64,000 nt of DNA from an uncultured Clostridia bacterium. GTDB lineage: Bacteria > Bacillota > Clostridia > Christensenellales > HGM11417. Below the pieces are notes generated by a model. That model was not told where the DNA came from and did not search any database. It was given only the letters and a program-made list of their open reading frames with translations. Location of the stretch: NCBI GenBank assembly GCA_944332455.1, contig CALVJY010000005.1:1-64000 (forward strand), given 5' to 3'. Of this stretch, positions 35,951-55,425 are shown one piece after another. Each line of letters begins with the position of its first letter. Positions within the stretch are counted from its first letter, which is position 1. A program made the translations under genes and the position numbers.

Positions 35951-36754
35951 TTCCGACCAGGCGCGATTTTTGCTTCGCAAAAATCGGTCGGACTTGAAAG
36001 ACAAACCGCTGTTCGCTTTCCCTTTGGGAAAGCTCGGCAGCGGTTTTTCTCTCTCAAAACCGCTGCGCGCTTTTGATTCACTCTTTTCCGCCGTGGCTTT
36101 GCTCACCGCAAAGCCACGATCGTGCAAAAGCCCGGCACAGGTCCGGCCTTTTGCGAAAACAAAATTCCGGCCAGACGCAAAATTCCGCTGTGCGGAATTT
36201 TGGCCGGACTTGAGGGGACAACCGTTGTTCACTTTGCCTTTCGGCAAAGTTCTGCAACGTTTTTCCCCTCTCAAAAGGCGTTGCCTTTTGATTCACCCTT
36301 TTCCACCCACGTTTTTACTCACCGTAAAAACGTGATTGAGTCCGATGGCGGCGCATGTCCGCCATCGTCGCGACAGATTAAAACCTTGTGCGAAAACAAA
36401 TTTTAAATTAAGAAATACTCTGCACGGGCGTACAGGGTGTGCCTTCAGGCACCCCGGCGTTGGCGCCACGAGATCAAAAGCCCGGCGCAAAAACGGGCTT
36501 TCAAGGAAAAAGCGATTTGTTACGGTGTATAACTCTTTTAATAGGATGGTCTGTTTTTAATAAACATGGTCTGGCCATAACGTGCCGCAAAGCGGCACAT
36601 ATCGAGCAAAGTGAGCGTAGCGGAACTTTGCATATCGAGTGGGCGCAAGCCCACATATCGAGCGAGGCACAGCCTCGCATATCGACAGATATTTATCGCA
36701 GGAACAAATAATCAATATTCCCGCTCGCTCGGAGTGGGCGTATTGCACGGTGCC
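35951..36754 (+). repeat. Long non-coding hairpin repeat, copy 1
   Basis: This 0.8-kb block between pth and the NusG-domain gene has no plausible gene. It starts with a hairpin (35,953-35,991) ending in GGTCGGACTTGA. The module is then repeated with different bases but the same pairing (36,177-36,207). Hairpins with the fixed loop TCACC lie at 36,092-36,118 and 36,308-36,334. The last third holds four CATATCGA boxes (36,598, 36,631, 36,654, 36,678) alternating with short hairpins. The end (CGCAGGAACAAA, AATATTCCCGCT, GAGTGGGCGTAT) matches copy 2 at 55,372-55,415. Confidence 0.85.
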
Positions 36755-53412: not shown

Positions 53413-54846
53413 ATGGTCAGAACACGTTTTGCCCCCAGTCCCACGGGGTATCTGCACATCGGGGGTCTGCGGACCGCCCTCTACGCCTATCTGTTTGCCA
53501 AAAAGAACGGGGGAAAATTCATCCTCCGCATCGAGGACACCGACCTCGAGCGCTACGTCGAGGGCGCGGTGGAGATCATCTGCGACACCCTCAAAAGCGC
53601 CGGCCTGACCTATGACGAGGGCCCGGGCGTGGGAGGAGATTACGGCCCCTACGTCCAGAGCCAGCGCAAGGAGATCTATCTTCGCTACGCCAGAGAGCTG
53701 GTGGAAAAGGGGGGAGCCTACTACTGCTTCTGCACCAAGGAGCGGCTGGAGAGCCTGACCGACGAGAACGGCCAGCGCAAGTACGACAAGCACTGCCTTT
53801 CCCTCTCCCCCGAGGAGGTCCGCGCCCGCCTGGATGGGGGCGAAAAGTGGGTGATCCGCCAGAACATCCCCGAAAAAGGGGCCTCTTCCTACGTCGACCT
53901 GCTGTTCGGGGAGATCACCGTGGACTTCAAGGATCTGGACGACAACATCCTGATCAAGTCGGACGGGATGCCCACCTACAACTTTGCCAACGTCATCGAC
54001 GATCACCTGATGGGGATCAACTACGTCATCCGGGGCACCGAATACCTGTCCAGCACCCCCAAGTACAACCTGCTGTACGACGCCTTCGGCTGGGAGCGCC
54101 CCAACTACATCCACCTGCCCCCGGTCATGCGGGACGCCACCCACAAGCTGTCCAAGCGCTTCGGGGACCCCAGCTACAACGACCTGCTGGCCGAGGGCTT
54201 TTTGAGCGAGGCCCTGGTCAACTATATCGCCCTGCTGGGCTGGAGCCCCAAGGAGAACCGGGAAAAGATCTCCTTTGAGGAGCTGAAGGAACTGTTCTCG
54301 CTGGAGGGGCTGTCCAAGTCCCCCGCCATCTTCGACAAGGCCAAGCTGCGCTGGCTGAACGGGGAGTACATCAAGGAGATGTCTCCCGAGACCTTCGCGG
54401 AGCGGGCCAGACCCTGGTTCGAAAAGGCCGGCGTCGCCGGAAAGTACGATGAGTTGCTTTTGGCCAAACTGCTGATCCCCCGGGTGGAGACCTTTGCCGA
54501 GATCCCCGAAAAGCTGGCCTTTCTGGACGAGTTCGAGGGCTTTGACCTCAATCTTCTGGTCAAGGACAAGATGAAGACCACCCTGCCCCTCTGCCGGCAG
54601 ATCCTGCCCGCCCTCATCGATCTGGCGGAAAAGAGCGATTTTTCCGACCTGCACGGCGAGCTGACGGACCTGGTGCAGAAGCTGGGCCTGAAAAACGGGC
54701 AGGTGCTGTGGACCTTCCGGGTAGCCGTGACCGGCGCGGCCAACACCCCCGGCGGCGCCTCCGAAATGGCGGAACTTTTGGGCAAGGAGCGCACGGTGGC
54801 CCGTCTGCGCAACACCCTTTCCCGGCTGGAAGAGGCCGGGGTTTAA
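53413..54846 (+). CDS. gltX: Glutamyl-tRNA synthetase
   Basis: This 477-aa class I synthetase has the HIGH motif as FAPSPTGYLHIGGLRTAL, IEDTD at about residue 41, a catalytic RGTEYLSSTPKY segment and KMSKS as HKLSKRFGD near 244. The C-terminal anticodon-binding domain is complete. It charges tRNA-Glu and, in species without GlnRS, often tRNA-Gln. It follows radC closely and may share its promoter. Immediately after the stop lies hairpin repeat copy 2. Confidence 0.97.
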   Translation: MVRTRFAPSPTGYLHIGGLRTALYAYLFAKKNGGKFILRIEDTDLERYVEGAVEIICDTLKSAGLTYDEGPGVGGDYGPYVQSQRKEIYLRYARELVEKGGAYYCFCTKERLESLTDENGQRKYDKHCLSLSPEEVRARLDGGEKWVIRQNIPEKGASSYVDLLFGEITVDFKDLDDNILIKSDGMPTYNFANVIDDHLMGINYVIRGTEYLSSTPKYNLLYDAFGWERPNYIHLPPVMRDATHKLSKRFGDPSYNDLLAEGFLSEALVNYIALLGWSPKENREKISFEELKELFSLEGLSKSPAIFDKAKLRWLNGEYIKEMSPETFAERARPWFEKAGVAGKYDELLLAKLLIPRVETFAEIPEKLAFLDEFEGFDLNLLVKDKMKTTLPLCRQILPALIDLAEKSDFSDLHGELTDLVQKLGLKNGQVLWTFRVAVTGAANTPGGASEMAELLGKERTVARLRNTLSRLEEAGV

Positions 54847-54877
54847 AAGCGCTTCGCTTCCGGCCAGACGGCCGTTA

Positions 54878-55425
54878 TTCCGACCAGGCGCGATTTTTGC
54901 TTTGCAAAAATCGGTCGGACTTGAGGGGACAACCGTTGTTCACTTTGCCTTTGGCAAAGTTCTGCAACGTTTTTCCCCTCTCAAAACCGCTTCGCGCTTT
55001 TGATTCACCTCTTTCCGCCCGAAAATTTACTCACCGTAAATTTTCGATTGAGTCCAACGCCGGTACACGCCCGGCGTTGGCGCGACGAGATCAAAAGCCC
55101 GGTGCGAGGACAGACTTTGGGAGAAAAAGCAATCGGTAACGGGCGTACAGGAAGTGCCTTCAGACACCCGGCGTTGGCGCGACGAGATGGAAAGCCCGGC
55201 GCATTGTAAAAAGCAATCTGTTACGAGTCTAAAATTTCTCTGTTATGTGGTCCGTCCATAACGTGCCACCTTGTGGCACATATCGAGCGGCACGAAGGGC
55301 CGCATATCGAATGGCCGTCAGGCCATATATCGAGTTTGCCGAAGGCAAACATATCGACATAAATTTCTCGCAGGAACAAAAAACAATATTCCCGCTTAGT
55401 CAGAGTGGGCGTATGGCGCGGAGCC
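54878..55425 (+). repeat. Long non-coding hairpin repeat, copy 2
   Basis: This 0.55-kb block between gltX and ppx starts with the same bases as copy 1 (TTCCGACCAGGCGCG). It carries the module hairpin (54,880-54,918), the TCACC-loop hairpin with a different stem (55,020-55,046), and a GGCGCGACGAGAT segment present twice. Four CATATCGA-type boxes follow (55,279, 55,303, a CATATATCGA variant at 55,324, 55,350) alternating with hairpins such as GCGGC/GCCGC, ATGGCC/GGCCAT and GTTTGCC/GGCAAAC. The stems differ from copy 1 but remain paired. Confidence 0.85.

Follow-up and report, generated by a model that had tools for sequence, protein, structure and literature searches.

Modular hairpin repeats with matched but changing stems in a Clostridia genome: candidate mobile elements, probably read as folded single-stranded DNA

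The window, a stretch of 64,000 nucleotides from an uncultured Clostridia bacterium, carries two intergenic arrays of hairpins. Array 1 precedes the start codon of peptidyl-tRNA hydrolase, whose gene is divergent, and array 2 begins just past the stop codon of a same-strand glutamyl-tRNA synthetase family gene that ends at 54846. The arrays are built from a unit of about 215 nt that comprises hairpins A to E, with one to three units placed head to tail per intergenic array. A second repeat family lies beside each of them. The features are as follows.

35953-35991, + strand: hairpin A, array 1 unit 1; left end CCGACC-AGGCGC-stem-GGTCGG (from the sequence and the left-end family)
35996-36053, + strand: hairpin B, array 1 unit 1; GAAAGACAAACCGCTG .. 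CAGCGGTTTTTCTCTC
36054-36076, + strand: hairpin C, array 1 unit 1; TCAAAACCGC .. GCGCTTTTGA
36077-36091, + strand: conserved joint TTCACTCTTTTCCGC, array 1 unit 1; also kept in f19 and f17 copies
36092-36118, + strand: hairpin D, array 1 unit 1; CGTGGCTTTG-CTCACCG-CAAAGCCACG (read directly)
36124-36154, + strand: hairpin E, array 1 unit 1; linker type, loop CACAGGT
36167-36207, + strand: hairpin A, array 1 unit 2; CCGGCC .. GGCCGG
36206-36210, + strand: GGACT, array 1 unit 2; pairs in the predicted fold with AGTCC at 36339-36343, closing the B-C-D junction
36212-36270, + strand: hairpin B, array 1 unit 2; GAGGGGACAACCGTTG .. CAACGTTTTTCCCCTC
36271-36291, + strand: hairpin C, array 1 unit 2
36292-36307, + strand: joint TTCACCCTTTTCCACC, array 1 unit 2
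36308-36334, + strand: hairpin D, array 1 unit 2; CACGTTTTTA-CTCACCG-TAAAAACGTG (read directly)
36343-36367, + strand: hairpin E, array 1 unit 2; terminal type, loop CGCATGT, common to f32 and f20 copies
36579-36685, + strand: second repeat family beside array 1; variable hairpins spaced by fixed ATATCGA
54858-54879, + strand: truncated left-end stub TTCCGGCCAGACGGCCGTTATT, immediately before array 2
54880-54918, + strand: hairpin A, array 2; CCGACC/GGTCGG
54923-54980, + strand: hairpin B, array 2
54981-55003, + strand: hairpin C, array 2
55004-55019, + strand: joint TTCACCTCTTTCCGCC, array 2
55020-55046, + strand: hairpin D, array 2; CGAAAATTTA-CTCACCG-TAAATTTTCG (read directly)
55054-55080, + strand: hairpin E, array 2; loop TACACGC, as in f17 copies
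55265-55357, + strand: ATATCGA-family array after array 2

The initial annotation singled out three hairpins that share the loop CTCACCG, each with its own stem and each followed by GAT, and direct reading places all three where it had put them. They are the first, second and third D hairpins listed above. The heptamer CTCACCG consists of a closing C-G pair around the loop TCACC, and AT[CT]G follows each of the three, so that GAT spans the 3' base of the stem. The swap described for a module hairpin, CCGACC/GGTCGG against CCGGCC/GGCCGG, is likewise present, in hairpin A.

Hairpin D, with its TCACC loop, is one of the five hairpins of the unit. The unit starts at a left end CCG[AG]CC that belongs to hairpin A (CCGRCC-bulge-stem-GGYCGG), whose bulge AAACGC is conserved. 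Hairpin B (GAGGGGACAA .. TTTTTCCCCTC) comes with at least four alternative tips, and some B hairpins contain pieces of the adjacent ATATCGA repeat family. Hairpin C is followed by the fixed joint TTCACYCYTTTYC, then by D and E. The E stem varies (AAAAGTCCGG, AAAACGGCGG, CCGATGGCGG, CCAACGCCGG and others), and its loops include CGCATGT, CGCAGGT and TACACGC.

We searched the whole source genome (2,345,665 bases in 53 contigs, 94% complete) by pattern, BLAST and model searches. The TCACC-loop hairpin proved to be dispersed, with about 65 copies in 2.35 Mb; 40 loci yielded 62 hairpins. Genome-wide we counted 50 occurrences of the pattern GATTCAC-N-CC-N-CTCACC and 0 of its reversed control, and a cross-family model (R2) recovers about 67 copies at E < 1e-10. 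A chance origin of the hairpin pattern is ruled out by the reversed-pattern controls, all of which gave zero. The true copy number is probably higher, as many contigs of the assembly (C2, C23, C27, C40, C46, C48 and C52 of G000) start or end within the repeats. The contrast with repeats that the initial annotation had drawn does not hold: the hairpins are themselves a dispersed repeat family.

The observation that stems vary with pairing kept extends to these roughly 65 copies and to other bacterial families. A wider set of copies with non-complementary stems would have contradicted the initial annotation, which was not the outcome: in an alignment of 60 copies, the D stem is entirely Watson-Crick in 48, holds a single imperfect pair in 10 and at least two in the other 2. 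Nine distinct perfect D stem types occur in this set, and at column pair 52-75 all four Watson-Crick pairs are found (19, 17, 11 and 7 distinct rows). Across D and E of the 60 copies, 96.3% of cells are paired versus 75.1% after shuffling, both sides change in 12 of 21 pairs, and the covariation score is 0.537, compared with 0.158 after shuffling and no more than 0.146 when partners were slid. Hairpin A, in an alignment across families that was trimmed, has 97.8% of its cells paired and a covariation of 0.468, slid partners reaching 0.194 at most.

The two arms of a D stem move together, and stem types are swapped as blocks. A tree of the flanks of the 60 copies requires at least 25 changes of D stem class, against a mean of 32.7 and a minimum of 27 after shuffling; a tree built from only the 5' flank requires 28, against 32.4 and 27. 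The flanks are short and both trees are poorly resolved. At this resolution there is hardly any linkage between the D stem and sequence a few bases from it. The stem changes are explained by recombination that exchanges blocks, whether or not template switching between arms takes part. Because stems are swapped as whole blocks, copies are not independent compensatory events, and covariation within one genome overstates the independent evidence. This carries a wider caution, that covariation among the repeats of one genome is by itself no proof of a functional RNA.

We further followed the element beyond its own family within the order. G069, from family f19, gave two matches to a first model, R1 (E 1.5e-10 and 7.5e-9); both copies keep the joint and the CTCACCG loop, one also keeps GGTTTTTCCCCTC, and the stems are unrelated. 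Model R2, run on 396 genomes, adds G120 (f19), G111 and G152 (f32) and G236 and G376 (f20); except for the best G111 copy, the matches in f20, f32 and G120 are individually weak (24-32 bits) and were accepted on inspection of their architecture. In the f32 copies, D retains GCTCACCGC, E retains GGCGCATGTCC, and the left end TCGACCAAACG is preserved as well. An R2 match in G293 (f6) resembles an ordinary terminator hairpin and was left out of the count. Multiple copies of the left-end motif CGACCAAACGCGA occur in f17, f19, f20 and f3. By genome, it is found 29 times in G022, 25 in G069, 14 in G277, 12 in G120, 8 in the source genome, 4 in G078 and 3 in G376, and 0-2 times in each remaining genome, the reversed control giving 0-1. 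In G277 (f17) there are complete tandem units with the joint TTCACC[CT]CTTTT, the E loop TACACGC and a different D loop. By R2 and left-end motif searches the element is absent from most genomes of the order. In G376, E-type hairpin repeats with the loop GGCGCAGGTCC and other neighbouring hairpins (L144, L147, L170-L172) appear to be a further relative.

Three pattern matches in named genomes (257 billion bases) are about the chance expectation; under R1, two of them (L039 and L041) aligned without hairpin pairing and the third was not reported. The D and left-end patterns had no match in IMG/VR, searched for viral carriers. Rfam, in gathering and E-value modes over the window and seven relative loci, returned one tRNA only, with the best weak matches far below gathering scores. 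We found no description of the motif in the papers searched, where text searching for short sequences is a weak test.

The arrays are intergenic, one of them (L087) touching the end of a called gene, and their 5' ends often abut a gene edge. Orientation to the genes is mixed: the upstream neighbour lies on the same strand in 21 cases and on the opposite strand in 13, the downstream neighbour in 18 and 19. In the genus of G022, one of 25 species has the element in the spacer after dnaN (a gene named from its sequence and not by family search), directly after the TAA; this is a comparison between species whose spacers are not alignable, so it yields no exact empty site. Short left-end stubs stand directly before complete left ends in the source genome and in G022, including the one at 54858-54879; this arrangement suggests either that copies inserted next to older left ends or that the end was duplicated. 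The left terminus is defined, the right end is seen in G022 copies only, and there is no clear terminal inverted repeat and no demonstrable target-site duplication. No mobilising enzyme was identified. Within 1.5 kb of the source genome's two IS200-type Y1_Tnp genes, the A, D and joint motifs are all missing. L042 1213-1860 and L043 1471-1857 hold IS200-type TnpA frames that are identical over their first ~95 residues and then diverge, and at least one looks degenerate.

We then compared the kinds of pairs in the stems. A structured RNA is expected to tolerate G-U pairs above A-C pairs on its own strand. Imperfect pairs are few throughout: the inner A stems of 42 distinct hairpins, a set chosen by its flanks, hold 451 Watson-Crick, 0 G-U, 0 A-C and 2 other pairs; D haplotypes hold 206, 6, 4 and 4 in the same order, E holds 104, 2, 1 and 13, and A across families holds 291, 3, 1 and 9. 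G-U pairs are rare and barely more frequent than A-C, which is an indication against RNA and no proof. Inside the units there is neither a sigma-70-like promoter nor an intrinsic terminator, and terminator scans stay at or near the shuffled expectation. The initial annotation had offered a structured RNA or a DNA hairpin substrate; the DNA substrate fits better, since G-U pairs are rare, the arrays face either way relative to neighbouring genes and the units lack promoter and terminator signals. Together these results favour a DNA-level hairpin and make the RNA reading less likely, neither being demonstrated. Pairing alone does not establish a functional RNA, because compensatory changes are common in mobile hairpin repeats, as the REPIN authors report (PMC3116915).

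Our best explanation, to which we give a probability of about 0.6, is that the copies make up a new family of mobile DNA elements, small, modular and non-autonomous, and that their hairpins are probably recognised in the form of folded single strands. The unit would fold once its strand becomes single-stranded, and a putative trans-acting enzyme would read the joints, the bulge and the loops, and of the stems their shape only, leaving stems free to vary if the arms match. This enzyme would insert copies near gene ends in intergenic DNA, sometimes by the left end of an older copy. Whole hairpins pass between copies by recombination, and template switching may contribute to the match between arms. 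The dispersal, modularity, paired variation, block exchange, conservation across families, intergenic position and single-species element were observed; we infer the single-stranded state and the enzyme, as well as insertion, and not loss, behind the distribution. Against this reading we count that neither a mobilising enzyme nor a target-site duplication emerged and that a conserved multi-hairpin layout would suit an RNA too.

Indeed, the units might instead be a multi-copy structured noncoding RNA, transcribed, folded under selection and acting in trans or in the mRNAs of neighbouring genes. Predicted folds of the unit are much stabler than those of shuffled sequences (z -6.9 and -10.0), GGACT and AGTCC are predicted to close a junction round B, C and D in the terminal unit, loops and joints are conserved across families, and covariation is strong. 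Such an RNA nonetheless seems unlikely to us, given the scarcity of G-U pairs, the missing promoter and terminator signals, the lack of a fixed orientation to genes, the absence from most genomes of the order and the lack of a match in Rfam.

Matched arms could also be a mutational by-product: template switching would copy one arm to the other, and the repeats would be inert debris with no selected function. According to PMC8604942, template switching homogenises the arms of inverted repeats, by which arms could stay matched without selection on function, and the block changes, few half-changed stems and near lack of G-U intermediates agree with this. It would leave unexplained why loops and joints (CTCACCG, TTCACYCYTTTYC, CGACCAAACGCGA) are nearly fixed across families despite stem turnover, as well as the copy numbers and the dnaN element of a single species, and we rate it as less probable still. 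Template switching can nevertheless act together with a mobile element, and the two explanations are compatible. A cis-acting mRNA element (terminator, attenuator or 3'-end stabiliser) spread by recombination is very improbable: some arrays lie directly 3' of a same-strand stop codon, as after the glutamyl-tRNA synthetase family gene, and BOX-type repeats are thought to influence co-transcribed genes (PMC3049150), but other arrays precede a divergent gene's start codon, as at peptidyl-tRNA hydrolase, and the mixed orientation and negative terminator scans led us to reject a terminator or cis-regulator.

Returning to the mobile-element reading, the systems nearest in kind are the REP/BIME/REPIN and BOX repeats. 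REP hairpins are processed as folded single-stranded DNA, with bulge and loop features conserved (PMC8266576). Like REP/BIME/REPIN, the element is short, high-copy and intergenic, with mosaic hairpins and compensatory changes. Unlike REP and REPIN, its left ends, as listed for the source genome, begin CCG[AG]CC after mostly T-rich DNA and have no GT[AG]G head, and it has five different hairpins in fixed order where REP has one palindrome. The RAYTs (TnpA-REP) of PMC2817692 come from gammaproteobacteria only; a link to RAYTs was rejected here, as the genome has only IS200-type Y1_Tnp genes without flanking copies. BOX repeats are modular interspersed stem-loop repeats of variable module number, clustered with and inserted in other repeats (PMC3049150). 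The element resembles them in its hairpin modules, with one to three units per array and mixed B and E modules. No sequence relation to BOX was seen. BOX repeats carry terminal inverted repeats and target duplications, of which we saw no clear sign here; the element keeps loops and joints while stems turn over and has relatives spanning several families. Integron attC sites are folded single-stranded DNA sites in which stems vary and pairing and extrahelical features are kept. The element shares the varying stems and kept pairing with attC, but it has no cassette array and its copies sit between ordinary chromosomal genes. A structured-RNA survey described STAXI, a covarying repeated motif suspected to act as single-stranded DNA (PMC2864571). 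The element, too, is a covarying repeated motif with a possible single-stranded DNA role; STAXI differs in being a tandem pseudoknot near DNA-handling genes.

The family is new to Rfam, and its covariance model and left-end motif allow more copies to be found. The repeated replacement of stems, with loops and joints kept, is a natural experiment that reveals what counts in a hairpin element. The family also poses the question of which enzyme moves the copies. More tentatively, and with considerable doubt on our side, the element may stand for an undescribed class of mobile elements: ordered single-stranded DNA hairpins of which a recombinase unrelated to RAYT/IS200 would read only loops, bulges and joints, whose stems would drift or be swapped, and which would have spread over several families of one order.

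The ATATCGA family beside both arrays is dispersed as well, with 85 triple-spaced matches in the source genome and none for the reversed control. ATATCGA arrays with unrelated stems also occur in G067, G077 and G082, which belong to other families. In G067 (L114, ~1555-1620), beside an ATATCGA array, hairpins are spaced by another fixed linker, ATGATGTA, which suggests a wider class of hairpin arrays with fixed linkers and variable stems.
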